Virus record (IMG/VR): IMGVR_UViG_3300045999_013652
Span: 1-28,495 of that record
DNA: 28,495 nucleotides
Reading direction: 5' to 3' (one strand)
Origin: a virus
The notes beneath the pieces were generated by a model. The model worked only from the letters and a program-made list of their open reading frames with translations. It made no database searches and had not been told where the DNA came from. Position numbers and translations under genes: made by a program. Of the stretch, positions 2,368 through 28,408 are shown piece by piece; within the stretch, counting starts at the first letter, position 1, and each line of letters starts with the position of its first letter.

Positions 2368-4503
2368 ATGGCAGAAAAAAAGGAGGTTGAAGAGGAAAGG
2401 AAGATAATTTTTACAAGTGAATTAGTCACGGAAACTACCAACAAGATTAATGACGGGGTAATTCTAAAGAGGTTTCAGAATCCTTGGTTCCAAAATGAGG
2501 TTGGTGTTAGAAGAGCTGGGTTAACCTTCATGATGACTGATGATGAGATTCAGGAATACATCAAATGCAAACTTGATATTCAATATTTTGCTGAAAAGTA
2601 TTGTAGAATTAAAACTGAGGATGGTTCAGTTCAGAACATAAAACTTAGAGATTATCAAAAAAATATATTGGATCTTTATACAAAAAATAGGTTTAGTATA
2701 TTATGTGGTTCGAGGCAGATTGGTAAAACAGTGAATGCTGCAATAACTATGTTACATTTCATCACATTCAATAATGATAAAAACATAATGATTGTTGCTA
2801 ACATAAGGAGTACAACTATTGAAATTATTGATAAAATTAAAAATATTTATATACAATTACCATTCTTTCTAAAAGTTGGGATTAAAAACTGGAATCAACA
2901 ATCCATTATTTTTGAAAATGGATGTAGGATAAAATCATCAGCTAGAAGTAAAACACCAGCAATTGGTTACACAATTGACTTTTTATATCTTGATGAGTTT
3001 GCTCATATACCCTCAAATATAATTGAACCTTATTATACAGCAGCTTTTCCAACTGTATCTGCTATAGAAAATTCCAAAATCATAATTACTTCTACTCCAA
3101 ACGGAATGAATTTATTCTATAAGTTACTTAGTGATTCTGAAAGACCTGAGGGAGACCCATTAAAGAACAATTATAAAGCCATGAGGGTTTATTGGTATCA
3201 AGTAGCTGGTAGATTTGTCACTTATTTTAGATTGAACAACCATAAGCTACATGATTTGAATCTGAAAAAAGATTATGTATTTCAAAAAGTAAAAGAATCT
3301 TTTGGTGATTTGACAAAAGTTGAAATGAAGTTTAATTCAGAAAGTCTAAAAGATGTTATTTATGTGTACAATAATGATTTGTGTAGTGACCAAATGGTGA
3401 AATCATTCACTTTTGAGACTTCTGATGGTAGAGAGATATCAATTTATAATATTGCTGAGGTTACTACTTGGAAGGAGGAAGCCATTAAAGACATTGGTGG
3501 TGAGGATGCGTTTAATCAAGAGTATGGTTTGAGGTTTATAAATGCAACTAGGTCTTTATTATCAGAACATATAATTGAAAATTTACTTCAGAATAAAAAG
3601 AACTATGTATATGAAAAAATTGAAGAATTGGACAAACGCCTAAAATTTCCTTATGATGAATTACTTTGGGTTGATGATATTTCAGTTTTTGCACCCTTAG
3701 AAAGAAAATCAATCAGAGGAGTGATGTCAGTTGATATTTCTGAAGGATTAGGTCAAGATTACTCAGTCATTAATATTTTCAAAATTTCCCAAAAATCTGA
3801 TGAAGTTATTGAATCACAAAGTGTTAAATACACGAATTTGAGTGATTTTTTTTGTTTAGAACAAATTGGAATTTATAGATCTAATCATGTTTCAGTTAAA
3901 CAGTTAGCTGAAATATTTTATGTTTTGTTGTTTGAATATTTTGATTACGATAATTTCAAAGTAGTTTTGGAACTTAATAATTATGGAAATGAGTTTTTAG
4001 CTCATTTACCAGGTTTATTTGAAGGTAATAATAATTATGGTTCAAGTGTGTTTTTTAGGTACAGACATCGAGTAGATTCTACTGAGGAAAAAATAGGTTT
4101 GAAAATAGGAGACAATAAGAATATACTAGTCAAGGATTATCAAGATTGTATGGATAAAAGGAATTATATAATAACAAATGAAGACAATATAAGAGAGATA
4201 ACAACCTTTGTGAAGCACATAACCTCTTCAGGGAATGTTAGATATGCTGCTGATATGGGACATGATGATACTGTGATGACTCTAGTTAATACATCAAGTG
4301 TTTTCAGTAAGTATGAGTTCAAAGAAATGGTTGAGGATTATGCTTCAAAAATTGTAGAAAGTTCAAAATTGAGTTACTATAGAAATTTGCTAGGTGAGAG
4401 GGAATATGTCGAGGGAGTTGATTACCAATCATTATTGAACGTAAATAAAAGAAGGAGAATGTATAACAGTCTCCTTTCAAAAAATACTAAAACTTTAGGA
4501 TAG
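2368..4503 (+). CDS. 17: Terminase large subunit (gp17-like packaging ATPase-nuclease)
   Basis: This is the motor that pumps DNA into the prohead and cuts the concatemer. The ATPase domain shows Walker A GSRQIGKT (residues 114-121), Walker B FLYLDE (205-210) and coupling motif TSTPNG (241-246). The C-terminal RNase H-like nuclease has its acidic residues in SVDISEG (D456), VVLELNNYG and ADMGHDD. I start at the ATG at 2368 (711 aa): the frame is open to a TTG at 2338, but that would put the AT-box inside the gene. T4 gp17 is 610 aa. Part of the excess is a block of about 85 residues between VAGR and WKEE, two segments that are nearly adjacent in T4-type enzymes. The last 9 nt overlap a convergent small gene. 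Confidence 0.95.
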   Translation: MAEKKEVEEERKIIFTSELVTETTNKINDGVILKRFQNPWFQNEVGVRRAGLTFMMTDDEIQEYIKCKLDIQYFAEKYCRIKTEDGSVQNIKLRDYQKNILDLYTKNRFSILCGSRQIGKTVNAAITMLHFITFNNDKNIMIVANIRSTTIEIIDKIKNIYIQLPFFLKVGIKNWNQQSIIFENGCRIKSSARSKTPAIGYTIDFLYLDEFAHIPSNIIEPYYTAAFPTVSAIENSKIIITSTPNGMNLFYKLLSDSERPEGDPLKNNYKAMRVYWYQVAGRFVTYFRLNNHKLHDLNLKKDYVFQKVKESFGDLTKVEMKFNSESLKDVIYVYNNDLCSDQMVKSFTFETSDGREISIYNIAEVTTWKEEAIKDIGGEDAFNQEYGLRFINATRSLLSEHIIENLLQNKKNYVYEKIEELDKRLKFPYDELLWVDDISVFAPLERKSIRGVMSVDISEGLGQDYSVINIFKISQKSDEVIESQSVKYTNLSDFFCLEQIGIYRSNHVSVKQLAEIFYVLLFEYFDYDNFKVVLELNNYGNEFLAHLPGLFEGNNNYGSSVFFRYRHRVDSTEEKIGLKIGDNKNILVKDYQDCMDKRNYIITNEDNIREITTFVKHITSSGNVRYAADMGHDDTVMTLVNTSSVFSKYEFKEMVEDYASKIVESSKLSYYRNLLGEREYVEGVDYQSLLNVNKRRRMYNSLLSKNTKTLG

Positions 4504-5450: not shown

Positions 5451-5945
5451 ATGAAAAAGATATTTTTTTTAATTTTTACAGTTTTCTCACCATTTTTGGT
5501 GAAATCTCAAGACTTGCCTAAATATTATATCAGTAAAGGTGACACTCTTGGATTGACCCTCCCAATGTCTCAAGTAAAGAAGATTAGAAGAGACCTTGAA
5601 CTAAAGATGGTGCTTGAAACAATAAAATCTAATTGTGACTCCTTATCTAATAAATCCAAAAATCAAGAGCAAGAATGTTTGAATAGATTATCTGATAAGG
5701 ATAAAATTATAAATCAATTAGATACATCCAGACAATCAAAAATAAGGATTATTCAAAGTTTAAATGGTGAATTAGTTACCACAAGGCTTGATAGAGATTT
5801 CCAAAAAAAGGCTTCTCAAACTAAAGACAGTTTGAATATTGTAGTAAATCTAAAGTTGACTGAAGTCAAAACACAAAGAAACTTTTATCTTGGTGGGACA
5901 GTTTTATTTTTAATTACCACTTTGAGTCTATTATTATTCCATTGA
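5451..5945 (+). CDS. Exported coiled-coil protein with C-terminal membrane helix
   Basis: A 164-aa protein with a classical signal peptide (MKKIFFLIFTVFSPFLVKSQ, cleavage likely after KS), a central coiled coil (about 50-135) and a C-terminal hydrophobic helix, GGTVLFLITTLSLLLF. The topology, exported at one end and anchored at the other, is that of a unimolecular spanin, but there is no lipobox Cys, so outer-membrane lipid anchoring is not supported. The start is 5 nt after the previous stop, so the two genes are surely co-transcribed. Together they look like a periplasm-spanning pair. No sequence family is recognised. Confidence 0.6.
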   Translation: MKKIFFLIFTVFSPFLVKSQDLPKYYISKGDTLGLTLPMSQVKKIRRDLELKMVLETIKSNCDSLSNKSKNQEQECLNRLSDKDKIINQLDTSRQSKIRIIQSLNGELVTTRLDRDFQKKASQTKDSLNIVVNLKLTEVKTQRNFYLGGTVLFLITTLSLLLFH

Positions 5946-5961
5946 AAAAAAACAGTTTTTT

Positions 5962-5973
5962 TATATAATATAT
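5962..5973 (+). promoter_or_regulatory. AT-box upstream of 6005
   Basis: TATATAATATAT lies about 31 nt before the ATG at 6005, after a short run of A and T tracts. Confidence 0.35.
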
Positions 5974-6004
5974 ACTGTACATAATTAAAAATTATTCTTT
6001 AAAA

Positions 6005-6535
6005 ATGAATCATATCAGAAAATTTAATTCCTTTCAGAAAGGAAAAAGAAGAGAAGAAATCATAAAGGAAGCTGTATTCCAAGTAAATGATATTTATAAA
6101 GTCAAAACTACTATTGATATTCCACAGTCTTTGATAAACGCTTATGTTAAGAAGGTAAAGGACAATACTGGAAAGAATTTAAGACAATTTTTTGGTGATA
6201 TGGACATTGCTGAAGAAATTGTAAAGTTTGTTGCGCAGAGTGGATTAGATTCTGATAAGCTTTCAGCAAATGCCCTAGTTGGTGGTGGTCAAGAACAATC
6301 ACAACCACAAGCCCAACCAGAGGCACAAACACAAGCTCAGCCTCAAGCTCAGCCAGAAGCACAACCACAGGTTCAACCAGAAGGACAATCTCAAGGGCAA
6401 GTACAGGTTCAGACTGAAACTGAAGGACAGACACAGCCACAAGCTCAACCACAGGATCAATCACAAGGAGAATTTGAAGAAGTTCAAGGTAGTGAAGAAG
6501 AAGAGGAAGAGGGTGAAGAAAAATTACCTGATTAA
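6005..6535 (+). CDS. Q/P-repeat, acidic-tailed phage protein with capsid-leader-like N-terminus
   Basis: A 176-aa protein of unknown family. Residues 1-95 form a globular helical domain. Residues 96-158 are low-complexity repeats of the type QPQAQPEAQ, and the end is a Glu run followed by KLPD. The N-terminus, MNHIRKFNSFQKGK, resembles those of several other proteins here and T4 capsid-targeting leaders (M-x-x-(I/L)-x-x-(F/Y)-x-x-F). An I-K-E/A sequence at residues 20-23 would suit a gp21-type protease. This suggests, but does not prove, a head or core protein. A terminator follows. The frames overlapping the repeats on the other strand are compositional shadows. Confidence 0.7.
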   Translation: MNHIRKFNSFQKGKRREEIIKEAVFQVNDIYKVKTTIDIPQSLINAYVKKVKDNTGKNLRQFFGDMDIAEEIVKFVAQSGLDSDKLSANALVGGGQEQSQPQAQPEAQTQAQPQAQPEAQPQVQPEGQSQGQVQVQTETEGQTQPQAQPQDQSQGEFEEVQGSEEEEEEGEEKLPD

Positions 6536-6548
6536 AATAATTTAAGAT

Positions 6549-6579
6549 AAAAAAAACACTGATTAGTCAGTGTTTTTTT
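6549..6579 (+). terminator. Intrinsic terminator
   Basis: ACACTGA, loop TTAG, TCAGTGT, flanked by an A run and seven Ts, just after the 6005-6535 gene. Confidence 0.85.
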
Positions 6580-6590
6580 ATGCACTTTAT

Positions 6591-6600
6591 AATATATAAT
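6591..6600 (+). promoter_or_regulatory. AT-box touching start codon
   Basis: AATATATAAT ends 2 nt before the ATG at 6603 and follows a terminator, so a promoter is needed here. This spacing predicts a leaderless or nearly leaderless mRNA. Confidence 0.45.
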
Positions 6601-6602
6601 CA

Positions 6603-7214
6603 ATGAAATACCTCAAAGTTTATGAGCAGTTCAATAATCAGGTTTTGTTAATTGTTGATGTTCAGAAATCATTTCGTAAATTTTTTACAGAAATGTATTT
6701 ACACAATCTCATGAAATATTGTAACAATTTTACTGAAGTATATCAATTATGGGACAATCATGTTGATGGGAAAAATGTTGATAAAGACTATTTATTTGAT
6801 GAAAATCCTGATATACCGGTTCACATGGATTTGTATAATTTTCCAAATCAAAAGGACATTATTGAAAAAAGATACAATTATGATGTCGATGTAGATTTCT
6901 ATAAAGACATTCTGGACAAAGAAACCTTTGAAAAAATAAAAGAAAAGGAACGGAGGAACTATTTAGAGGTTGGTGAAATATTTGAGACTAAAGAGGGTAC
7001 AGCTTTGGTTTATATAGGGAATAACCATAAATGGTTTCAAGTGCCGAAAAAATTATATGATCTATTCAAGAATTTGAAAGGTAGAGAAATAATAATAGTG
7101 GGGGGTGCTGACTCTGAATGTTTATCTGATATTTATATTTCAGCTCAATCAATGGGTTTGAATATAAAAAGAGATTGGAAATATATTTGGACTGCTAGTA
7201 GTTGTCCTTTTTAG
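6603..7214 (+). CDS. Isochorismatase-like cysteine hydrolase
   Basis: A 203-aa protein of the isochorismatase/nicotinamidase superfamily. LLIVDVQKSF (catalytic Asp19) is the family's first signature, IIEKRYNYDVD supplies the Lys (K89), and IIIVGGADSECLSD holds the nucleophile Cys173 in the right context. Members hydrolyse nicotinamide, isochorismate or related amides; the substrate cannot be told from sequence. Nicotinamidase activity would fit NAD salvage, known in other large phages. Between residues 40 and 130 it carries a phage-specific, charged insertion. The leader MKYLKVYEQFNN before the first strand resembles T4 capsid-targeting peptides. The stop interlocks with the convergent gp25 gene in TTAG. 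Confidence 0.75.
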   Translation: MKYLKVYEQFNNQVLLIVDVQKSFRKFFTEMYLHNLMKYCNNFTEVYQLWDNHVDGKNVDKDYLFDENPDIPVHMDLYNFPNQKDIIEKRYNYDVDVDFYKDILDKETFEKIKEKERRNYLEVGEIFETKEGTALVYIGNNHKWFQVPKKLYDLFKNLKGREIIIVGGADSECLSDIYISAQSMGLNIKRDWKYIWTASSCPF

Positions 7215-13849: not shown

Positions 13850-15583
13850 ATGGCATCATATAACCCACTTAACAACCAAGGTCAATCTCAGACAAATTTA
13901 AATTCAACAGTTGAGAATAAAGGTTTATTCAACAGACTTCTTAGAAATTTGTCAAACTTTGGCATGAGGTATGATGACATGATACTAAGAAACACTGTTG
14001 GTGTTGGTATAAATGAAGACCCATATTCTCAGAAAAATAATTCAATGTATGATTTTTTCAGTCAGAAAGCAGTTGCTTCTGTTCTGAATAAAAAGTCAAT
14101 TCCTTATCTTGACAGATCTTATGCTGATAAAAGAAGAATATTGAGGGAGTATTCTATAAAAGATGAAATAAGAGATTTTATTTCAGCTGTATCTGATGAG
14201 GGTATTATCTATGGTGTTGATAGAGACTTTTGTTCACCTGAACCTTTATCAAGTGATTTTTCTCAAGATGTAAGAGATAAATATCAAGAATATTTTGAAG
14301 TAATTTATAATAAGTTTGGGTTCAATGACAACATAACAGCATGGAATATGATGAGAGATTATCTAATTGATGGTTATGTAGCTATAGAAATAGTATGGGA
14401 TGATAAAAAGAAAAACATAATTTATTTCAACAGACTTAGACCAGAGACTTTGGTTCCTGCTTATGAGCCAGCTATAGGAAATCTCTGGATACAATTCCCA
14501 GAAGACCCTCAATTAAGAAGGATATTTTTAGATTCTCAAATTGTATTCATTTCATATTCAACTCAAAATGATTTTACTGAAACTTCATATGTTGAGGGGT
14601 TGATAAAACCATATAACCAATTGAAGATTTTGGAGCAAACAAAAATTATGTTCAATATCATAAATGCTACAATTTATCAGAAATTTACTATACCAATCAA
14701 AGGTTTGCCAAGACAACGTGCTGAGGAACAAATTGGTCAGTTGATAGCTGATTATTCTGAGGAGATTGAGTGGGATGATACTATGGGTACAGTTACAATC
14801 AATGGAAAAAAACATTTACCATATAACAAACAAGTTTGGTTTCCTGAGGGGGATGCTGGAACACCACAAATGGAACTTGTGAGTCCTGAGGGTCACAATT
14901 TGAATGAAGACATCTTATTAACTTGGTTTCATAATGCTTTGAAAAGAGCTTCAAAGATTCCATTCCAAAGATTTGATAAAGAAAGTGGTGGAGGTACCGT
15001 ATTTGATGATGCTGCCTCTATGACAAGAGATGAAGTTAAATTTAATAACTTCATCAATAGGTTGAGAGCTAATTATAAAGAGTTGATTGTAAAGCCTTTA
15101 AGACTGCAAATGTGTATGGAGTTTCCAGAACTTAAAGATGATGAAATATTTCTAAATCAAGTTGATATAATTTTTGTATCCAATCAATTATTTGAAGAAT
15201 GGAAAAGACTTGGTAACTTGGAAAAAAGGAGTGGTATATTAGGGACTTTACTTGGAATTCAAACGCCTGATGGTAAACCATATTTCCACATTGATTATCT
15301 TATGGATAAAGTGATGAAGCTCACGCAAGAAGAAAAAGAAGAGAACAAATCATATTGGATTAAATCCCAAGGTGGTGGTACTGCTCCTGAAGGTGAAATG
15401 GGTGGTGCTGGTGAGGCTGGTGGAGCAGCTGGTGGTGAAGTTGGTGAAATGGGTGGTGGTGAAGAAGCTGGTGGTGCACAAGCTACTCCTGAGGCTGGTG
15501 GAGCACAAGCTACTCCTGAGGCTGGTGGTGCACAAGCTGCTCCAGAGGGTGGGGGTGAAGAAGCTTCTGAATTTGAATTTTAA
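13850..15583 (+). CDS. 20: Portal protein (gp20-like)
   Basis: A 577-aa portal protein, forming the dodecameric head vertex through which DNA passes and to which terminase docks. T4 gp20 is 524 aa. The portal body spans residues 50-500: typical stretches include DEIRDFISAVSDEGIIYG, FNRLRPETLVPAYEP, IPIKGLPRQRAEEQI and DIIFVSNQLFEEWKR. The last 70 residues are a low-complexity Gly/Ala/Glu tail including three copies of a nine-residue GGAQATPEA-type unit. Such a flexible acidic tail is not part of T4 gp20. The stop interlocks with a convergent gene in TTAA. The next plus-strand gene is the protease-scaffold fusion, so the T4 order 20-21-22-23 is kept. Confidence 0.95.
   Translation: MASYNPLNNQGQSQTNLNSTVENKGLFNRLLRNLSNFGMRYDDMILRNTVGVGINEDPYSQKNNSMYDFFSQKAVASVLNKKSIPYLDRSYADKRRILREYSIKDEIRDFISAVSDEGIIYGVDRDFCSPEPLSSDFSQDVRDKYQEYFEVIYNKFGFNDNITAWNMMRDYLIDGYVAIEIVWDDKKKNIIYFNRLRPETLVPAYEPAIGNLWIQFPEDPQLRRIFLDSQIVFISYSTQNDFTETSYVEGLIKPYNQLKILEQTKIMFNIINATIYQKFTIPIKGLPRQRAEEQIGQLIADYSEEIEWDDTMGTVTINGKKHLPYNKQVWFPEGDAGTPQMELVSPEGHNLNEDILLTWFHNALKRASKIPFQRFDKESGGGTVFDDAASMTRDEVKFNNFINRLRANYKELIVKPLRLQMCMEFPELKDDEIFLNQVDIIFVSNQLFEEWKRLGNLEKRSGILGTLLGIQTPDGKPYFHIDYLMDKVMKLTQEEKEENKSYWIKSQGGGTAPEGEMGGAGEAGGAAGGEVGEMGGGEEAGGAQATPEAGGAQATPEAGGAQAAPEGGGEEASEFEF
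15467..15547 (+). repeat. Three 27-bp tandem repeats in the portal gene tail
   Basis: Three direct copies (15467, 15494, 15521) encode AGGAQATPE and close variants. The first two differ at one base. They probably vary by slippage. Confidence 0.9.
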
Positions 15584-16528: not shown

Positions 16529-18640
16529 ATGAAACCAATCCTAATTGTTGAAAACAATACAAATCCATTGAAGGAGAATGTTCAGGTTAGTGGTGGTAAA
16601 AAAGAATATGTTTTAGGTGGTATTTTCACAGAATTTGGTGTTAAAAACAGAAATGAGAGAATCTATACTGCTGATAAATTTATTCCATGTTTACAAGAAC
16701 TCAATGAAAGAATTAACACAATGGGTGTTGTTTATGGTGAATTTGACCATCCTGATGTGTTTGATACTTCTCTTTCGAGAGCATCACATATTATTAAGAG
16801 GGCAAATTTTATTAAAGAGTCCAATAGAGTAGAAGGAGAGATTAAACTTCTTAATACTTATTGGGGTAAAGAGGCTAAATCTCTTGTTGATGATAATTGT
16901 CCAGTTTTTGTATCTTCTAGAGCAGCTGGTGTTACTGAGTCTGATGGTACTGTGACTTTAAAAAAATTATTTACCTATGATATTGTTGCTGATCCTGGTT
17001 TTGCATCAGCAAGAATGAGTTCTATTAATGAATCATTAGGTTTTAAAAAAGAAACTAACTTTAGGATATATGAAATGTCCGATGAGTCAAAAATAAACGA
17101 TATATTCACTATGAACAAGAATGAATTCGTTACCAAGCAACAGTTGACTGACTATTCTAAATACTTGATCAATGAAATTTCTAGTACTAAGAAGCAAGTT
17201 CAAACTGCTGTCAAGAGTGGTAATATCAATCCAAAGAAATTAGAGCAACTTCTTGAGTATTATGAAGAGCTTAATAAGACAAATACACAAATGGTTAAGT
17301 ATCTTGACTATTTAGCAGAAAAAGTACAAGTTGTAGTAAATGAAAATAGTTCATTGAAATCAACAACTGAAAAACTTATTTCTCACAATGATTATTTAGC
17401 TGAAAATCTTGAAAAGGCAATAAATTATTCTGAGTATTTAGCTGAAAATCTTGATAAGAACATTTCCTACTCTGAGTATTTAGCAGAAAACTTAGATAAA
17501 AACATTGCTTATTCTGAGTATTTAGCTGAAAATCTTGATAAGAACATTTCTTACTCTGAGTATCTAGCAGAAAACTTAGATAAAAACATTGCATATTCTG
17601 AATATATTGCTGAGAACCTTGATAGAGGTATTTCTTATGCTGAATATTTAGCTGAAAACCTTGATAATTCAATTGCTTATTCTGAGTATTTAGCTGAGCA
17701 TGTTGAAGGTAACATTGCATATTCTGAATACATTGCAGAAAACTTGGATGATAATATTGCTTACTCTGAATATATTGCTGAGAATCTTGATAAGACAGTT
17801 TCTTATGCTGGAATGATTGCTGAGAAATTAAATTCAGGTGCAGTTAATGAATCTAAAAAATCTACAAAAGTAGTTCCAACTCTTGAGGAAATGGGTTTTG
17901 AAGAAAATCCAATGGAAGAAGAGGAGGAAATGATGGCTCATGAGGAAGGAGATATGATGGCCCATGAGGAAGAAGAAGAAAATCTTCCACATTTAAGTGC
18001 TTCTGAAGAAGAAGTAAAATCTCAGGCTTGGGCTGATGAAGAAGCGGATGAAGAGGAAACCTATTCTTGGGAAACTGCTGAAGAAGAAAGTTCTGAAGAG
18101 TCTGAAGAAAAATATGAAAAAAATTCTGATACAGAATTATCTAAACAAATTGATAAATTAATTCAAGAGGCTAAAAAACGTAAAGTTTCTGAAACATCTG
18201 AAATGCATTTCTTGAAATTCTTGAACAAACGTCAAGCTGATGATTTTTATAATCTAACACTTGAAGAACAAGAGCAAGTAAAACTTTATATAAATGAAAA
18301 AAGTTACTTCTCACAAGGTGAAGTTCTAAGACTTATCCAAGAAGCATTATCAACTAAAAATGAATCTCTAGAAGAGAGATTGATTAGATTGATGCCTGAA
18401 AACATTAAGCCAATCTGGTCCCAACTTAATGAATCTTCTAAGAAATCAATAATGTCACAAGCTAGACTTTATCCTGATTTAACAACAGAGTCTAATATTG
18501 AACATTTTTGGAATACTAGAAGTCTTAAGAAAAAAGAATCTGGTACTAAGAAACTAGTTTCAGTAGATCCTATCATTCAAGAAGATAGATTAGCTGAAAA
18601 TGAAGTTAAATCCATCTTAGAAAGATTCAAAAGCCTTTAA
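16529..18640 (+). CDS. 21: Prohead protease fused to repeat-bearing scaffold (gp21-gp22-like)
   Basis: A 703-aa protein. Residues 1-170 are a T4 gp21-type serine protease that matures the prohead: GEFDHPD (His74), FVSSRAAG (Ser129/130) and YDIVADPGF (Asp151/155) mark the catalytic sites. In T4, protease (212 aa) and scaffold gp22 (269 aa) are separate proteins; here the frame continues into a long helical, acidic part typical of a scaffold. Residues 286-439 are eleven 14-residue repeats of the form YSEYLAENLDKNIA. A Glu-rich segment follows (about 450-530), then a K/E-rich helical end. (L/I)-x-E sites, the known gp21 cut motif, occur in nearly every repeat and at SINE-S (165-169), just after the protease. 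Self-processing of a fused precursor is a reasonable inference. Confidence 0.88.
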   Translation: MKPILIVENNTNPLKENVQVSGGKKEYVLGGIFTEFGVKNRNERIYTADKFIPCLQELNERINTMGVVYGEFDHPDVFDTSLSRASHIIKRANFIKESNRVEGEIKLLNTYWGKEAKSLVDDNCPVFVSSRAAGVTESDGTVTLKKLFTYDIVADPGFASARMSSINESLGFKKETNFRIYEMSDESKINDIFTMNKNEFVTKQQLTDYSKYLINEISSTKKQVQTAVKSGNINPKKLEQLLEYYEELNKTNTQMVKYLDYLAEKVQVVVNENSSLKSTTEKLISHNDYLAENLEKAINYSEYLAENLDKNISYSEYLAENLDKNIAYSEYLAENLDKNISYSEYLAENLDKNIAYSEYIAENLDRGISYAEYLAENLDNSIAYSEYLAEHVEGNIAYSEYIAENLDDNIAYSEYIAENLDKTVSYAGMIAEKLNSGAVNESKKSTKVVPTLEEMGFEENPMEEEEEMMAHEEGDMMAHEEEEENLPHLSASEEEVKSQAWADEEADEEETYSWETAEEESSEESEEKYEKNSDTELSKQIDKLIQEAKKRKVSETSEMHFLKFLNKRQADDFYNLTLEEQEQVKLYINEKSYFSQGEVLRLIQEALSTKNESLEERLIRLMPENIKPIWSQLNESSKKSIMSQARLYPDLTTESNIEHFWNTRSLKKKESGTKKLVSVDPIIQEDRLAENEVKSILERFKSL
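17384..17845 (+). repeat. Eleven 42-bp coding repeats (14-aa scaffold units)
   Basis: Tandem 42-bp units encode 14-residue helix repeats. Units 2-5 are almost identical, alternating NIS and NIA endings in pairs, which suggests recent duplication of an 84-bp pair. Units 1 and 11 are degenerate. Frames read across these repeats on the other strand are artefacts. Confidence 0.95.
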
Positions 18641-18719: not shown

Positions 18720-20474
18720 ATGTCACACATTAGAATTGACAAACAGAAGGCTCTTAAAAAATGGTCTCCTGTTTTAGAAAACATGGGTGTTACAGGCGAA
18801 GATAGACTAGATTGGATGTCAGAATATGCTGAATTCCACTCTATCAATGAAAACGCTTATGTTAACGCTACTTTAGCTGGTATGGGTGCAGTTACATCAC
18901 CTCAGCCTTCAACTTTTGCTGGTTTCACTGATCCAGGTAAAATTGGACAAACCCTCGGTGGCCTTTCAACTGGTTCTGGAGATTTGGGTCAAAACCTTCT
19001 TCCAGTAGCTATGAAAATTGCTGCTCAGACTATTGGTCTTGATTTAGTTGCTGTAAAACCTTCACCAGGTCCAAAATTAGACCTTCTTTATATTGATTTC
19101 CAATATGATGATTTAGCTAACCCTGGCACTTTTGGTAGACCACAAATTTTCAAAGTTACTGCTGCTGGTTCTGGTCAACTTGACCAAGCTAAATTGAGCA
19201 TCAGAGCTTCATTGACTGCTAATGGTATCATTGAAACTTCAGATGGTCTCAAAGGTAAAAGACTTTGGTTAACAATCGCTACTGGTGCTGCTGGTACATA
19301 TAATCAGATTGCTGCAAGTGTGAACCTAACAAGTGAACCTTCAACACCATATGGTGGTGTTGCTGAATTTTTAGGATTCTCTCGTATTGATGGAGCTCCA
19401 ATTTTAAGAGCTTACAGACAAGCTAATTCTGAAAGAGTGAATTCTCCTTCATATGCTTATACTTTCGATCCAGCACAGAACACTTTCCACATTGCTACTC
19501 AGTCAATGGTTGATTATATAAAGTGTATTGGTACAGCTGCTGTTGCTCCTACTTCAATTGAACTCATCTCAGCTCTTGAAGACCATATTCCTGGATTCTC
19601 TACAAACTTCGCTGGCACAAGAACTAATGATGCTTCTGGTACTTATCCAATGGATAGGCTTACTGATGATAATAGTTATGCTGGTGTTATTGGGCCAAAA
19701 ATTTCTTCTAAATCAATCGCAGTTGGTACTATTGAAGTATCTTCAGCTCTTAGAAGAACTGAAATCGAAGACATCAAAGCTAACACTGGTATGGATATCG
19801 TTCAGAAGATGGAGTCAATCCTTGTAAATGAACTTTCTCAAACAATCTCTAAGCAAATTGTTTCTAAGATTTTTGAAATGGGTGATTTGAACAGACTATC
19901 TGCTCCACTACAATCTACAAAGACTGTATATGGAACTCCAGGTTTAACTGCGACAACTATCTTTGACCTTGACACTGATTATGCATCTGGAACATTAGGT
20001 GGTGAAACTACACATGCTGTACAAAGAAAACTCATCACTAAGATGGTACATGCTTCTAACTTCATCGCAACTGAAGGTCGTGTTGGACCTGCTCAATTTG
20101 CTGTGACTAATGGAGGTATTGCTGCAGCTCTTATGGACATTGCTGGTTACACAATTAACCCAACCAAGTCTAAAATCAATGGTTCTGGACAACTTTATCC
20201 AGTTGGTCAAATTGGTGATATCCAGATCTATGTAGATCCTTATATGAAGTATAATGATGACAGAATTGTCATTGGTAGAAAGAATAACCCAGATCAACCT
20301 GGTATTATTTTCGTACCTTACTTAATGGCTCAATCAATCAGCCTTATATCTGAAGCAACATTCGCTCCAAGATTGTTACTTAGATCAAGATATGCAGTTG
20401 CTGAAGTAGGTTGGTATCCACAGAAGCAATTCATGACATTATCAGTTATTGATTCTAATCAATACCTTAACTAA
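18720..20474 (+). CDS. 23: Major capsid protein (gp23-like)
   Basis: A 584-aa T4-type major capsid protein, the hexamer subunit of the head (T4 gp23 is 521 aa). The N-terminus is a helical prodomain that ends at a candidate protease site, HSINE-NAY (cut after Glu44); downstream come NATLAGMGAVTSPQPSTFAG, the SSALRRTEIEDIKANTGMDI arm region, and the closing LLRSRYAVAEVGWYP, which is typical of the family. Mature length would be about 540 aa. Codons here end in C more often than in neighbours, a usual sign of very high expression. The gene stands alone between an AT-box and a perfect terminator. The other frames inside it are shadows. Confidence 0.95.
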   Translation: MSHIRIDKQKALKKWSPVLENMGVTGEDRLDWMSEYAEFHSINENAYVNATLAGMGAVTSPQPSTFAGFTDPGKIGQTLGGLSTGSGDLGQNLLPVAMKIAAQTIGLDLVAVKPSPGPKLDLLYIDFQYDDLANPGTFGRPQIFKVTAAGSGQLDQAKLSIRASLTANGIIETSDGLKGKRLWLTIATGAAGTYNQIAASVNLTSEPSTPYGGVAEFLGFSRIDGAPILRAYRQANSERVNSPSYAYTFDPAQNTFHIATQSMVDYIKCIGTAAVAPTSIELISALEDHIPGFSTNFAGTRTNDASGTYPMDRLTDDNSYAGVIGPKISSKSIAVGTIEVSSALRRTEIEDIKANTGMDIVQKMESILVNELSQTISKQIVSKIFEMGDLNRLSAPLQSTKTVYGTPGLTATTIFDLDTDYASGTLGGETTHAVQRKLITKMVHASNFIATEGRVGPAQFAVTNGGIAAALMDIAGYTINPTKSKINGSGQLYPVGQIGDIQIYVDPYMKYNDDRIVIGRKNNPDQPGIIFVPYLMAQSISLISEATFAPRLLLRSRYAVAEVGWYPQKQFMTLSVIDSNQYLN

Positions 20475-23387: not shown

Positions 23388-24707
23388 TTATTGTTTAGTG
23401 ATTTCACCAGGTATTTTTCCTGGGAATTTACCCTTTTTCTTATCTTTTTCCTCTGAGCCTCTTTCTATTTCAGTATAGACATCTGGATATACTTGCTCTT
23501 CTGAATCCACATCATATTTAATATCAAAAAACTCTCCAAAATCAACTAGACCACTTCTGGTGAGTTCTATTTCACTCTTCTTATTGAAATATTCATCAAT
23601 CTTTTTTTGTATAATATCAACAAATTGATTGAATATATTAATTGTAGAATCTGTAAATATTCCTATTGGTTTTTTTCTTTTTTTATTAAATGATCCAAGG
23701 ATAACTTTGAAACAGTATTCTAACTTTTTTTCTTGCTCTATATAATTTTTGGTAAGTTTATTAGGTATTAATTCTGTATTGATTCTGAACTTATCTTTAT
23801 CAAAAAACTGTGGGACTATAAAATCAAAATTTATCAAATCATCTTTAACCTCTGATAAGTAGATGTTGAACAATTTACAAATAAGATTGAGGTATACTTC
23901 ATCCCTCTTGTTACCATTTGGTTTTATAGTTGATAAATCAATGGATTGACAAAAATTTAGGAAGTTTATTAGGATGAGTGTATAAATTTCTACAAACTCA
24001 GTTGAATTTCCCTCAGAAATTTTTTTATAAAGGGGGTTCAGAATTTCAAATGAAACATTTTGGTCTTCTACCCTCAATATAAGTTTTTCAAGATTGTTTT
24101 GAAATTCATCTTCCATCAGGAATGAATTTTGAGTATTTGGGTTTAAAATCTTATAGAAAAAATAGGCAAATGACTTCTCTCCAAATACATAATCCAAATC
24201 TTGTTCACTTGTATTGAGAAAATACTTTATTGCTTCTTTTGTTTGGTCACTTAACTTACCTTTGAATATTACTGGTATTGAATCAACTTCTAATAATCTT
24301 GCATACTCATCAATTTCTTCCATTGTATAATCAAATTTATTACCTTTACAGATTGATATCAATACTAAGTTATTTTTTGGAATCCTTGAATATTCTATAT
24401 TGGCTGGTTGGTTGTCAGGAAAATACTCAAAACAAAACCACCACTTTCTATTTAGTAGTCCCAAAACCCTTTCAGAAAGGTTGTCAAAAAAGTCAATAGC
24501 ATTATTATAATAATTTTGCATTGCTAAATCTATAAGATTGATTGGGTCAGAAGATAAAGATTTTGCTTTTATTGTGAATTTATGACCATTCCAATTCACA
24601 TAAATCTTACTTCCCTGAATATCCTCTAAGATTATTAATTCACTATCCAAAACTTGGCTTAGAGAATTGTCATCTGATATTTCACTCAAATTCATTAATT
24701 TTGACAT
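23388..24707 (-). CDS. Large phage protein, possibly a degenerate nucleotidyltransferase/RNA-ligase relative
   Basis: A 439-aa protein of a kind I have seen as hypothetical in large Bacteroidota phages. Residues 25-50 read LEDIQGSKIYVNWNG then FTIKAKS, which resembles the ligase/nucleotidyltransferase motif I (E-K-x-D-G-S), but the nucleophilic Lys is replaced (E28-D29-I-Q-G-S). A WWFCFEYFP segment (about 89-97) may be motif III. If this is right, the enzyme lacks the adenylated Lys and would be inactive as a ligase. This is a weak match. The remainder is helical, ending in a K-rich tail. It is first in a three-gene minus-strand unit, divergent from the NFACT-R gene across a palindromic AT-box. 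Confidence 0.5.
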   Translation of the reverse strand: MSKLMNLSEISDDNSLSQVLDSELIILEDIQGSKIYVNWNGHKFTIKAKSLSSDPINLIDLAMQNYYNNAIDFFDNLSERVLGLLNRKWWFCFEYFPDNQPANIEYSRIPKNNLVLISICKGNKFDYTMEEIDEYARLLEVDSIPVIFKGKLSDQTKEAIKYFLNTSEQDLDYVFGEKSFAYFFYKILNPNTQNSFLMEDEFQNNLEKLILRVEDQNVSFEILNPLYKKISEGNSTEFVEIYTLILINFLNFCQSIDLSTIKPNGNKRDEVYLNLICKLFNIYLSEVKDDLINFDFIVPQFFDKDKFRINTELIPNKLTKNYIEQEKKLEYCFKVILGSFNKKRKKPIGIFTDSTINIFNQFVDIIQKKIDEYFNKKSEIELTRSGLVDFGEFFDIKYDVDSEEQVYPDVYTEIERGSEEKDKKKGKFPGKIPGEITKQ

Positions 24708-24798: not shown

Positions 24799-25188
24799 AT
24801 GAGATATATTAAATATTTTTTTGAAGCTAAATCAGACAAACCAAAAGTTAAAAAACATGACATAGATGGGTTTGTTGTTCTACAAGGAAAAGATGCTTCT
24901 GCTAATGAATATTTAACCTTAGAAGTTGCAAATGAGGATGATATTTGGATGCATGCTAAGGGGGTGCCAGGCAGTCACATAATCATCAAGATAAAAGAAA
25001 AGATACCAACTGAAACAACTATTCAACGTGTTGCAGAGATTGCTGCTAAGAATAGTAAATCTACAGAAGATATGGTAAAGGTTGTTTATTGTAAGAAGAA
25101 ATTTGTTACAAAGGAACCTGGTATGAACACTGGTCAAGTAAAAGTTGATTATATCAATGCAAATGAAATAATTGTCCCTAAAAATTAA
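24799..25188 (+). CDS. Stand-alone NFACT-R domain protein (ribosome quality-control type)
   Basis: A 129-aa protein, almost all NFACT-R. This is the RNA/tRNA-binding domain of RqcH/Tae2/Rqc2, which act on stalled large ribosomal subunits and help add C-terminal tails. Signatures: DGFVVLQGKDASANEYL (the G-x-N-x-x-x-N-(D/E)-x-L start), DDIWMHAKGVPGSHIIIK (the diagnostic W-x-H-(x)n-G-S-H), IQRVAEIAAKNSKS, and a VVYCKKKFVTKEPGMNTGQV end. The NFACT-N and coiled-coil parts of RqcH are absent. The frame is open farther upstream, but only the ATG at 24799 follows the promoter box and starts near the domain. It begins MRYIKYFFEAKSDK, a possible capsid-leader-like segment. Its stop overlaps the AT-box of the peptidase gene. 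Confidence 0.85.
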   Translation: MRYIKYFFEAKSDKPKVKKHDIDGFVVLQGKDASANEYLTLEVANEDDIWMHAKGVPGSHIIIKIKEKIPTETTIQRVAEIAAKNSKSTEDMVKVVYCKKKFVTKEPGMNTGQVKVDYINANEIIVPKN

Positions 25189-25199: not shown

Positions 25200-26573
25200 A
25201 TGGCAAAGAATAAGAAAAATCAAAATAATTCACAAGCCCCACTTATAAAGTTTAGTGATGATTTTTGGATAATGTTGGATAAGATTGCCCAAGTAGATAA
25301 TTCTGAAATAGCTTGGTCTTTATATGAATTAGATTCAAACCCCCTTGTTAAAAACATAATGCGGGTTAGTAAAGTAGATATTTCTGAAAAAGAAAGTAGG
25401 TTTTCTGTAACTATTTCAGGAAGTCAGGTTGATGTGAGAATCACTTCTTTTTTGAAAAATTATTTTGAAGACCAATTTTCAGATGATAAGATACAGAAAT
25501 TTATAAGGTCTTATAACAGACTGATATCAGGAAGTGATGATGTGGAAGATGAGGATACTAAACAAATTGAAATCAAAGAATTTAACTATGACCCATCAGA
25601 TATCAAATCTACATTTTTATCACTTGTCAGTGAAACATATCCATATGGATATGAAGAAGAAGTTGTGAAATTTTTACCATCTTTTTTAAAAAGAGACAAA
25701 CACGGAAATTACTACCATTTGATTGGCACTTCAGATACAGCATTCACTTGTCATTTGGATACGGCTTCAAGAACTAAATCAAAAGTAAAACTTAGGGAAT
25801 TTGAAAAAGATGGTCAGACTTTTATCAAAACAGATGGAAGTTCTATATTGGGCGCTGATGACAAAGCTGGTGTTACAGTTTTGCTTTATATGATTCACAA
25901 TAATGTACCAGGTGTTTACTGGTTCTTCATTGGTGAGGAGAGGGGTGGTATTGGATCTAGAGATGTGGCTAAGACTTATGATGATTATTCATTTATGAAA
26001 GATGTAAAGAAAATAGTATCCTTTGATAGAAGGAATTACTATTCAGTAATTACGTCTCAGATGGGTGTTTCTTGTTGTTCAAATGAATTTGCACAATCTC
26101 TTTGTGATGAACTAAATAAAAGTGGTCTGAAGTTGACTTTGGACCCCACTGGAATCTTCACAGACTCAGCCAGTTTCATTGATTTAATACCAGAGTGTAC
26201 CAATGTATCAGTTGGATATTTTGATGAGCACAGACACACAGAATTGCAAAATATAACCTATTTAAAAAAGTTATGTAAAGCAGCAGTGGTTTGTGATTGG
26301 GATAAATTGGTTGTGAAAAGAAAAATTGGTATAGATGAGGAAGTTTCCAAAAAGTATGCTAGAATGGTTGGTGATACAAGAAGACTCAAAACAAATAATA
26401 AAATTAAGTTTTCAAGTGAGGGAGGCAATTTGTTTTATGAAATTGATATAATAAATGGTGAACTAAATGATTTTCATGAGGATATGGTTCAATTAGAAAG
26501 ATTATTTGCTCAATACAGACACCAACCAAGTATCTCATTCCATGAGAATACAATAAAAATTAAATTTGACTGA
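25200..26573 (+). CDS. M20/M28/M42-like zinc aminopeptidase-type protein
   Basis: A 457-aa protein with a co-catalytic two-zinc peptidase core at about residues 135-365. CHLDTAS (H185, D187), ILGADDKAGV (D220), FFIGEERGGIGS (E246/E247), SFDRR (D276) and FDEHRHTE (H344/H346) give the usual metal and base residues. Members remove amino acids or cleave short peptides. Residues 1-130 are an acidic, phage-specific N-terminal domain, and the C-terminal 90 residues are another extension, so it may act in a complex. It lies 11 nt after the NFACT-R gene on the same strand and is followed directly by 26573 and then the tmRNA. All metal ligands seem present, so activity is likely. The natural substrate is unknown. 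Confidence 0.85.
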   Translation: MAKNKKNQNNSQAPLIKFSDDFWIMLDKIAQVDNSEIAWSLYELDSNPLVKNIMRVSKVDISEKESRFSVTISGSQVDVRITSFLKNYFEDQFSDDKIQKFIRSYNRLISGSDDVEDEDTKQIEIKEFNYDPSDIKSTFLSLVSETYPYGYEEEVVKFLPSFLKRDKHGNYYHLIGTSDTAFTCHLDTASRTKSKVKLREFEKDGQTFIKTDGSSILGADDKAGVTVLLYMIHNNVPGVYWFFIGEERGGIGSRDVAKTYDDYSFMKDVKKIVSFDRRNYYSVITSQMGVSCCSNEFAQSLCDELNKSGLKLTLDPTGIFTDSASFIDLIPECTNVSVGYFDEHRHTELQNITYLKKLCKAAVVCDWDKLVVKRKIGIDEEVSKKYARMVGDTRRLKTNNKIKFSSEGGNLFYEIDIINGELNDFHEDMVQLERLFAQYRHQPSISFHENTIKIKFD

Positions 26574-27019
26574 TGGAGTGGAATAAACATATCAAAAAAT
26601 TTGAGAAATATGATGACCCAGATGATTTTGAATTTGATTTTTCAGATGAGTTGTCGCCTAAGAAATATAGTAAATATGGTGATGATGAAGAAGTTGATAA
26701 TGAATTAAAAGCAGCATTTGAGCACTTAGCATCTACTATAAGACAAATGATTAGAAATGCTGGTCTAAAAAATTCAACAGTTACTGTACATGATAAAGAT
26801 TTTGTTATGGAATTTATTTTAGAACAAAATCAAAAGTTCTCAAAGTTTATGTCAATCATTGGTTTGATGAAAAAAATTCATCAAGATATTTTAATTCAGT
26901 ACGAACCTGCTGTTGATTTGTGGTATACCAAAGACAAAAAACCACTTTTAACAGTAGATTTTTATTATAAAGAGGGTAAGAGTGGTAATTTTAAATGGTC
27001 AGAAGACATACCTTTTTAA
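26573..27019 (+). CDS. Hypothetical phage protein with capsid-leader-like N-terminus
   Basis: A 148-aa protein whose ATG overlaps the peptidase stop by 1 nt (TGATG), so the two are translationally coupled. The first 40 residues are very acidic (DDPDDFEFDFSDEL). The start MEWNKHIKKFEKYDD has the H-I-K-K-F pattern of other N-termini in this window. Residues 60-120 are helical and 125-148 strand-rich. No family is recognised. It is the last protein gene before the tmRNA, from which a separate AT-box divides it. Confidence 0.7.
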   Translation: MEWNKHIKKFEKYDDPDDFEFDFSDELSPKKYSKYGDDEEVDNELKAAFEHLASTIRQMIRNAGLKNSTVTVHDKDFVMEFILEQNQKFSKFMSIIGLMKKIHQDILIQYEPAVDLWYTKDKKPLLTVDFYYKEGKSGNFKWSEDIPF

Positions 27020-27065: not shown

Positions 27066-27418
27066 GGGGGCGACTTGGAATAGATTCGCGATGTAAGTTT
27101 AGGGATGCAGGCATTGGGTGATATCGACCAATTAAATAAGGTATCAAAGCTGTAAATGGCAACACAAACGAAGTAGCTAGCAAAGAAGAATTAGTATTTG
27201 CCCTACGCAACAACCAACTCAAGGTAAACGAGGTAGCTTCTGTAGCTTAATAGTTTCCAACAGTAATGAGTCTGTAAAACTCACGATGTTATCTGTCAGT
27301 TAGAATCGTAAAATCAAATTGAATATTTTGTCAGTTTAAGAAAAAATTGACTAAGCTTGTGAAAGAGTTTTTAGGTTTAGTTGAGGAAGACGTGGGTTCG
27401 AATCCCTCCGCCTCCACA
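27066..27418 (+). ncRNA. ssrA: Transfer-messenger RNA (ssrA)
   Basis: A complete tmRNA of about 353 nt. The tRNA-like ends pair: GGGGGCG (27066-27072) with CGCCTCC (27409-27415), then discriminator A; CCA is not encoded (the next bases are CAA). The T arm, GTGGGTTCGAATCCCTC, has one internal U-U mismatch. The 5' half has the typical GACTTGGAATAGATTCGCGATG, and the 3' side CTAAGCTTGTGAAAGAGTTTTTAG is the conserved tmRNA core. An internal open frame encodes the tag. tmRNA frees stalled ribosomes and marks the protein for Clp/Lon-type degradation. Bounded by an AT-box and a perfect terminator. Boundaries are from pairing and could be off by a base or two at the 3' end. Confidence 0.95.
27158..27253 (+). 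other. tmRNA tag reading frame (long variant)
   Basis: Reading from GGC at 27158 gives 30 codons before the double stop TAA TAG. The peptide begins GNTNEVAS, passes through KEELVFALRNNQ and ends VNEVASVA. The resume codon is placed by similarity to Bacteroidota tmRNAs, whose tag begins GETN or GENN right after TAAAT. Usual bacterial tags are about 8-12 residues. The NEVAS block occurs twice (near the start and near the end), as if the frame grew by duplication. The end is VA, not the usual AA. Confidence 0.75.
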
Positions 27419-27422
27419 AAAG

Positions 27423-27518: not shown

Positions 27519-28229
27519 ATGGGAAAAAAATGGACAGATGAAACAAGGATATTGTTTGAAAAGAAAAAAGAATTAGGTATATCAAGATTATCAATTGCAT
27601 TGTGTAATAATTACACCATAAATAAATATCAACTCATTTATGATGGTGTTCTGGTGGGGTCATTCAAAACTTGGCAAGATGCATTTCAGACAATAGATGA
27701 TGTAAAGGAAAGGGGTATAAAAATAGTAAGGAGTGAAAATAGGCGAATTTTAAAAGAATTGGAAAAAAATGGTGATCAGTTGCTATGTTATCGTTGTAAT
27801 ACTTACAGAAATACAGAAGATTTTAAATGGGGACATAAATACTGTAATAATTGTGCGATGGAACAGAAAAAGGAATATTACTATCTGAATAAATATGAAA
27901 TTTCAAGTAATAAATATCTCTCATATGAAAAATATTTTAGAGGTTTAATAAATAAAAGGGGGAGAAGTAATTTTATATCAGTAGAAGATTTAATTGGTCT
28001 TTTAGAAAAACAGGACTATAAATGTGCTATCACTAAACAAGATTTCGTTATGGAAAAAGGAAGTCCAAAATTACCATCTATAGATAGAATTATACCAGGT
28101 AACGATAATGGAACTTATACTATAGATAATGTACAAATAATTTGGCATGGTTTGAACGCCTTCAAAAATGTGTGGAGTATGGACTTTATATATGAATGTT
28201 GCGAACATATAATGAAAAATAGAAATTAG
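27519..28229 (+). CDS. HNH-type endonuclease with N-terminal DNA-binding-like domain
   Basis: A 236-aa protein. The C-terminal half is a His-Me finger nuclease: CAITKQDF, SIDRIIPGNDNGTYTIDNVQ and WHGLNAFKN match the pattern S-(I/L)-D-R-I-x-P-G-x-Y-T-x-(D/E)-N-V-Q-(x)n-N-x-x-K. CYRC...YCNNC (about residues 89-112) is a four-Cys zinc site. The N-terminal 80 residues are an unnamed domain. Such proteins are free-standing homing nucleases, and this one sits next to a tmRNA gene, a common target of mobile elements. Its stop interlocks with the convergent 28226 gene in TTAG. Confidence 0.82.
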   Translation: MGKKWTDETRILFEKKKELGISRLSIALCNNYTINKYQLIYDGVLVGSFKTWQDAFQTIDDVKERGIKIVRSENRRILKELEKNGDQLLCYRCNTYRNTEDFKWGHKYCNNCAMEQKKEYYYLNKYEISSNKYLSYEKYFRGLINKRGRSNFISVEDLIGLLEKQDYKCAITKQDFVMEKGSPKLPSIDRIIPGNDNGTYTIDNVQIIWHGLNAFKNVWSMDFIYECCEHIMKNRN

Positions 28230-28408
28230 GACTTATATTTTCCACCACTACGTTTCCTTTTACAATATTGCTTCTGTGAAAATCCAAGATTGCGACTGCT
28301 ACAATTTATATTTTTCTTGTATTTAACAGACCATCTGGATTTCATACCCTTTCTTGGTTTGTTATATCCTTCAGTGATGAAGTCTTCATATGATAGTATA
28401 TTTTCCAT
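28226..28408 (-). CDS. Small basic internal head protein with capsid-targeting leader
   Basis: A 60-aa protein in two parts. Residues 1-13, MENILSYEDFITE, resemble the capsid-targeting leaders of T4 internal proteins (which begin MKTYQEFIAE) and end in I-T-E before Gly14, the (I/L)-x-E sequence that T4 gp21 cuts. Residues 14-60 are strongly basic (many Lys and Arg, two Cys), as in T4 internal proteins IPI-IPIII, which are packaged with the DNA and injected. I infer a cleaved, DNA-associated capsid protein. There is no direct homology evidence. It is coupled to the upstream zinc-finger gene (2-nt gap). Confidence 0.6.
   Translation of the reverse strand: MENILSYEDFITEGYNKPRKGMKSRWSVKYKKNINCSSRNLGFSQKQYCKRKRSGGKYKS

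Follow-up and report, generated by a model that had tools for sequence, protein, structure and literature searches.

A lone NFACT-R protein with a predicted capsid-targeting leader, encoded beside the head genes of huge T4-like phages

The stretch of DNA analyzed here (the window, 28,495 nucleotides, IMG/VR record IMGVR_UViG_3300045999_013652) is a 28.5-kb viral fragment carrying genes for a T4-like head, a small open reading frame (ORF) for an NFACT-R domain protein, and a tmRNA gene. The following features are referred to throughout; the arrow marks a cleavage position.

2368..4503, + strand, terminase large subunit (T4-type PHROG match)
13850..15583, + strand, portal protein (PHROG 213)
16529..18640, + strand, head maturation protease, T4 gp21-like, about 700 aa (PHROG 207, 3.8e-30)
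18720..20474, + strand, major capsid protein (PHROG 138)
24799..25188, + strand, lone NFACT-R protein, 129 aa (ORF from ATG to TAA; Pfam, PDB, and AlphaFold2)
24799..24825, + strand, residues 1-9 of that protein, MRYIKYFFE, predicted capsid-targeting leader with a predicted prohead-protease cut after E9 (FFE↓AK)
24862..25146, + strand, NFACT-R domain proper, residues 22-116, core D-[IL]-W-x-H-x-K-G-x-P-G-S-H
25200..26573, + strand, peptidase, M28/PepT-like, next after NFACT-R (PHROG 4191)
26573..27019, + strand, third gene of the conserved trio; its relatives begin MKLKKYKDIFEK / MKINKYKKFLEK, which is leader-like
27066..27419, + strand, tmRNA gene, directly downstream of the trio (Rfam, 74.6 bits)

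Searches with the 129-residue protein returned Pfam NFACT-R_1 (PF05670; 5.6e-15, 56.3 bits against a curated cut-off of 29.8) and, from the PDB, RqcH chains with E-values as low as 4.6e-18. An AlphaFold2 model computed from a family alignment of 32 rows had a pLDDT of 90 and a pTM of 0.82, with disorder only in residues 1-12. Its top fold match by Foldseek and VIA-align 2 was the NFACT-R domain of B. subtilis RqcH (Z 19.2, rmsd 1.3 Å over 108 residues), followed by S. suis FBPS, CCDC25, and the yeast and human NEMF-type factors (Rqc2/NEMF); no competing fold was found by these programs, the next family scoring a Z of 3 or less. Eighteen positions, including D48, W50, H52, G58, S59, and H60, are common to phage and cellular NFACT-R domains. 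The first-pass annotation, made from the letters alone, had read the W-x-H..G-S-H core as NFACT-R and had proposed a Pfam HMM search and an AlphaFold comparison with B. subtilis RqcH as checks; both agree with it, no other fold matches better, and the protein almost certainly adopts the predicted NFACT-R fold. The same annotation held that the N-terminal and coiled-coil parts of RqcH are missing, and this was confirmed: neither NFACT-N nor the coiled-coil/M parts were found in the ORF, which has 21 residues before the domain and stops at residue 129; the AlphaFold2 model has no helices for a coiled-coil/M domain; and NFACT_N (PF05833) occurs in 0/12 related phage records, on which count an N-terminal NFACT half encoded elsewhere in the phage was rejected. 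Judged by its domain content, the protein belongs to the NFACT-R domain family; it does not qualify for the RqcH family, two of whose defining parts it lacks. A TTG start at 24667 in the mechanical ORF list has no support, as orthologues begin at or near the leader.

Relatives of this protein were found in at least 48 IMG/VR loci and in two very large genomes, LR756502 (642 kb) and LR745206 (635 kb), and the gene is single copy in all 12 of the large phage records. Phage genomes over 634 kb have been placed in the Mahaphage clade, with Bacteroidetes predicted as hosts (PMC7162821), and we infer that LR756502 and LR745206 are the Mahaphage-clade genomes of that study. The phage NFACT-R proteins group together on one side of a branch (SH-aLRT 91) in a tree that is weak and built from few columns, and dN/dS across the family is 0.02-0.17, indicating purifying selection. 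Recent transfer from a host RqcH was rejected, as in the same weak tree of few columns the phage clade is not nested in the sampled Bacteroidota or Bacillota; matches to plasmids, and weak ones to Listeria and Enterococcus phage records, are distant (at most 47.5% identical).

The place of the gene is also conserved. The PHROG 4191 peptidase follows NFACT-R directly in 53 of 54 loci (the lone exception being truncated at the locus end); 48 loci have the capsid gene upstream, and 42 the protease-scaffold gene. Relatives usually have the genes in the order protease-scaffold, capsid protein, NFACT-R, peptidase, third gene. Five genes separate the capsid gene from NFACT-R in the window, and the NFACT-R trio is intact and followed by the tmRNA, an arrangement found again, tmRNA included, in the 465-kb relative G002. 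Taken together, the single clade, the purifying selection, and the fixed place beside a T4-like head cassette indicate that the phage NFACT-R gene is not a stray acquisition. The peptidase is tightly paired with NFACT-R yet has no leader. The window tmRNA has a predicted 30-residue tag, GNTNEVASKEELVFALRNNQLKVNEVASVA, which is long for a tag and contains NEVAS twice. Near the NFACT-R trio in two other loci (L001, 8835-10349, - strand; L226, 7360-8868, + strand) lies a protein of about 500 aa with many CxxCxG-type zinc-knuckle repeats, beginning MRFLKFNDFLLES and MKLRRYIDFLLPINES, respectively.

At the N terminus of the window NFACT-R protein is the predicted leader MRYIKYFFE↓AK, which scores 12.7 bits in the profile described below, the best of the 33 window ORFs; MIKKYKLFKEGK is another such leader. 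NFACT-R orthologues begin M[IKR][KNY].. and place an E↓[GSAK] junction some 41 residues N-terminal to the core Trp. The leader ends in aromatic/aliphatic-x-E↓[S/G/A], with I, F, L, or Y at P3, resembling T4 prohead protease sites. Some orthologues score low (1.6 in L004, 0.0 in L039, and -1.7 in L050) and keep the site-like E, and in L002, L006, L016, L021, and L038, where an N-terminal extension of ~100-150 residues is present, FNE↓S, FTE↓G, or INE↓S is still found at the junction. Among the extended proteins, those of L002, L016, and L021 have an in-frame Met at the leader start, which suggests a second start or a gene fusion; that of L006 has none there. Three further window ORFs (6005-6535, +; 6603-7214, +; 28226-28408, -) begin MNHIRKFNSFQKG, MKYLKVYEQFNNQ, and MENILSYEDFITEG and look like weak or altered leaders.

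To score such leaders, a profile was built from the N-termini of LR745206, with a threshold of 8 bits and the expectation taken from internal stretches. The first-pass annotation had noted that the first nine residues resemble a capsid-targeting leader, and the resemblance holds up statistically: 80/735 ORFs of LR745206 reach the threshold, against 2.35 expected, as do 61/467 ORFs of LR756502, which lay outside the training set (1.23 expected; 34 against 0.17 at 12 bits or more), and 26/349 ORFs of G002 (1.43 expected). Cellular ORFs gave 6/472 at 8 bits or more and none at 12 or more, and T4's own ipII and ipIII leaders reach just 4.6 bits with the huge-phage model. Paralogy was rejected as the source of the common leader: without residues 1-16, the 80 LR745206 proteins still cluster as 70-72 separate families. 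When 77 of the 80 are aligned, only M1 and E10 are nearly invariant, and conservation is 1.5 bits at the residue after E and at most 0.16 bits beyond. The consensus is MKYLKxYxxFE↓S or MIKKYxxFIxE↓S (L062-L093 from LR745206, L094-L113 from LR756502, and L228-L247 from G002). Since the training columns of the profile contain the cleavage site, genes were also selected by residues 2-4 alone, which answers this point in part: [FILY]-x-E-[SNAG] then occurs within residues 6-15 in 50% of the selected LR745206 genes versus 5.6% of the others (Fisher 3e-29), and in the second phage in 46% versus 8.0% (3e-16).

Sites of the same kind occur in the head proteins themselves. An INE↓N site is present in the capsid protein of L001, a 98% relative, and SINE↓N in orthologous capsid proteins; the scaffold parts of orthologues carry repeated IAE/LAE, the same kind of site as the leader junction, and in orthologues the long C-terminal part of the protease looks like a fused scaffold. 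The leader statistics, the test on residues 2-4, and these capsid and scaffold sites together make a strong, though indirect, case for reading the leader as cleavable and capsid targeting; it could instead send proteins elsewhere in the infected cell. As a separate observation, the protease is joined to a long part with many YSEY[IL]AE repeats in L003 (1744-3822), L004 (1981-4080), L006 (3696-5795), and L007 (4024-6147), with an L/I-x-E-type site in each repeat, as if the protease cut its own scaffold into pieces.

The nearest precedent is T4, in which the capsid-targeting sequence (CTS) is about 10 residues long and gp21 cuts after L/I-x-E (PMC9026906). As in the T4 internal proteins and Alt, the leader here is short and aromatic/aliphatic, ends in [I/L/F]-x-E before a small residue, is encoded along with a gp21-type protease, and is common to several unrelated proteins (seen here in relatives, the window being 28 kb); unlike in T4, it has its own consensus and stands on about 80 ORFs in one phage rather than a handful, and packaging is predicted. 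As far as sequence can tell, the window NFACT-R protein works like a T4 internal protein, and both the capsid targeting and the size of the leader-bearing cohort appear to be new.

Its place beside the head genes and its packaging leader suggest, first of all, a virion protein. Going by the leader site and the leader-family statistics, it probably enters the head, is trimmed, and leaves along with the DNA at ejection: the leader of ~10 residues would take it into the prohead core, and a gp21-like protease would cut after [F/I/L/Y]-x-E, leaving a basic domain of about 120 residues that would stay in the head until the DNA is ejected and leave with it. We consider packaging in the head likely, and entry into the cell slightly less so. 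Once in the cell, the domain might, with less certainty, bind RNA as the NFACT-R domain of RqcH does (large subunit, tRNA, or peptidyl-tRNA) and act on translation or on tRNA as soon as infection begins. Whether its target is the ribosome or tRNA is evenly balanced in our estimate; its partner could be the stalled or free 50S subunit, tRNA, other RNA, or packaged DNA. In RqcH, NFACT-R sits near the A-site finger of the 50S subunit, where it is peripheral and poorly resolved (PMC8012679), and tRNA-Ala is selected by NFACT-N, not NFACT-R (PMC8373112), so a lone NFACT-R protein should not tail proteins on its own. The whole reading, in which huge T4-like phages of a Mahaphage-type lineage conserve a head-cassette protein whose NFACT-R domain carries a capsid-targeting leader and has an early RNA target, has about an even chance of being right.

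The leader-bearing cohort would supply companions for such a protein. Pfam matches among the LR745206 members include RNA_lig_T4_1 (8.3e-21), the PolyA_pol head domain (9.8e-30), 2'-5' RNA ligase with RNase_T, SMODS-associated NUDIX, and methyltransferases, and a T4 Rnl1-type RNA ligase and a tRNA-nucleotidyltransferase-type protein are the predicted companions. We suggest tentatively, at somewhat short of even odds, that each head carries dozens of leader-marked proteins from ~70 families, delivered with the DNA, whose RNA and translation tools act before phage expression. On the same reading, and with similar reserve, the head kit may comprise the lone NFACT-R protein, the T4 Rnl1-type RNA ligase, the tRNA-nucleotidyltransferase-type protein, and the 2'-5' RNA ligase/exonuclease, and would deal with stalled ribosomes or damaged tRNAs before any phage gene is expressed.

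Three other explanations were weighed against an early RNA target. The best of them is that the protein resides inside the head and binds the packaged DNA of the phage or the prohead core, serving assembly or condensation, with no action on host translation. Its fixed place beside the capsid gene would fit, as would the basic mature chain of every member (pI 8.0-9.7) and the presence among the fold matches of CCDC25, an NFACT-R protein whose DNA complexes have been solved (Z about 15). However, the closest match in both fold and sequence is the RNA- and ribosome-associated RqcH domain rather than CCDC25, the net charge is modest and not above that of cellular RqcH domains, and several leader-bearing cohort members resemble enzymes; we regard this explanation as unlikely.

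It is quite unlikely that NFACT-R, the phage tmRNA, and SmpB form a ribosome-rescue set acting on stalled ribosomes late in infection. The window tmRNA lies 1.9 kb downstream, in the same place as in G002, and SmpB is encoded in 4/4 records over 460 kb, but in LR745206 SmpB lacks the leader, which means that NFACT-R is treated differently. Moreover, there is no tmRNA above the cut-off in LR745206 or LR756502 (ARAGORN predicted none in LR745206 or in the first 400 kb of LR756502, and Rfam matches were sub-threshold only), and a search for S4 (RqcP-like) domains found none in LR745206, LR756502, or G002. The same search found none in G007 and one in a 265-residue frame of G001; an RqcP might also be supplied by the host.

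The last explanation, taken from the first-pass annotation, that the lone domain binds stalled 50S subunits at the NFACT-R site and blocks or joins alanine tailing by host RqcH, is possible but not favored, and in our view very unlikely: the family keeps the signature residues, and NFACT-R is found in 221/296 Bacteroidota genomes, mostly in long frames (nearly all of the matches listed are in frames of about 490-660 aa), full-length NFACT proteins being common in the phylum, whereas the selection of tRNA-Ala by NFACT-N and the peripheral position of NFACT-R argue against it, and a control Bacteroides genome has neither NFACT_N nor NFACT-R, so that a target in the host, itself inferred indirectly, is not guaranteed. 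The idea drawn from that control genome, that hosts of the lineage have no RqcH, was overturned by the genome survey.

Lone NFACT-R proteins are already known in a few bacteria and in algal viruses. The domain occurs without the N-terminal parts of RqcH in four bacterial loci (L223, L224, L187, and L193), in EhV as ehv463 (PMC10222054), and in BFVD entries; the bacterial proteins differ from those of the phages in having no phage leader and lying outside head cassettes. Two of their ORFs are at 5867-6253 (-) in L223 and 6262-6729 (-) in L224, and L224, on a long branch, is the only one of the four to adjoin the phage clade. CCDC25 likewise has the NFACT-R fold outside a full RqcH and has been solved with DNA, but it is eukaryotic, about 22% identical, and of another architecture. 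The phage protein resembles RqcH, Rqc2, and NEMF in NFACT-R sequence, predicted fold, and the D-[IL]-W-x-H-x-K core, and differs from them in having no NFACT-N, HhH, or coiled-coil/M domain, in its added N-terminal leader, and in its place in a phage head cassette. Among 5.39 million open papers, the only one to name both NFACT-R and phage was a review of bacterial ribosome rescue.

Most proteins of the largest phages are without known function, and the common leader, present on dozens of unrelated ORFs in each phage, may outweigh the lone NFACT-R protein as a finding. Being readable from sequence, the leader would mark proteins that are packaged and probably injected, making dozens of unknowns per genome candidates for early host takeover or counter-defense. 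The lone NFACT-R protein would be a conserved case of a virion-delivered ribosome-rescue domain, and it would offer a small soluble tool for finding what NFACT-R itself binds, a domain poorly resolved in RqcH structures.
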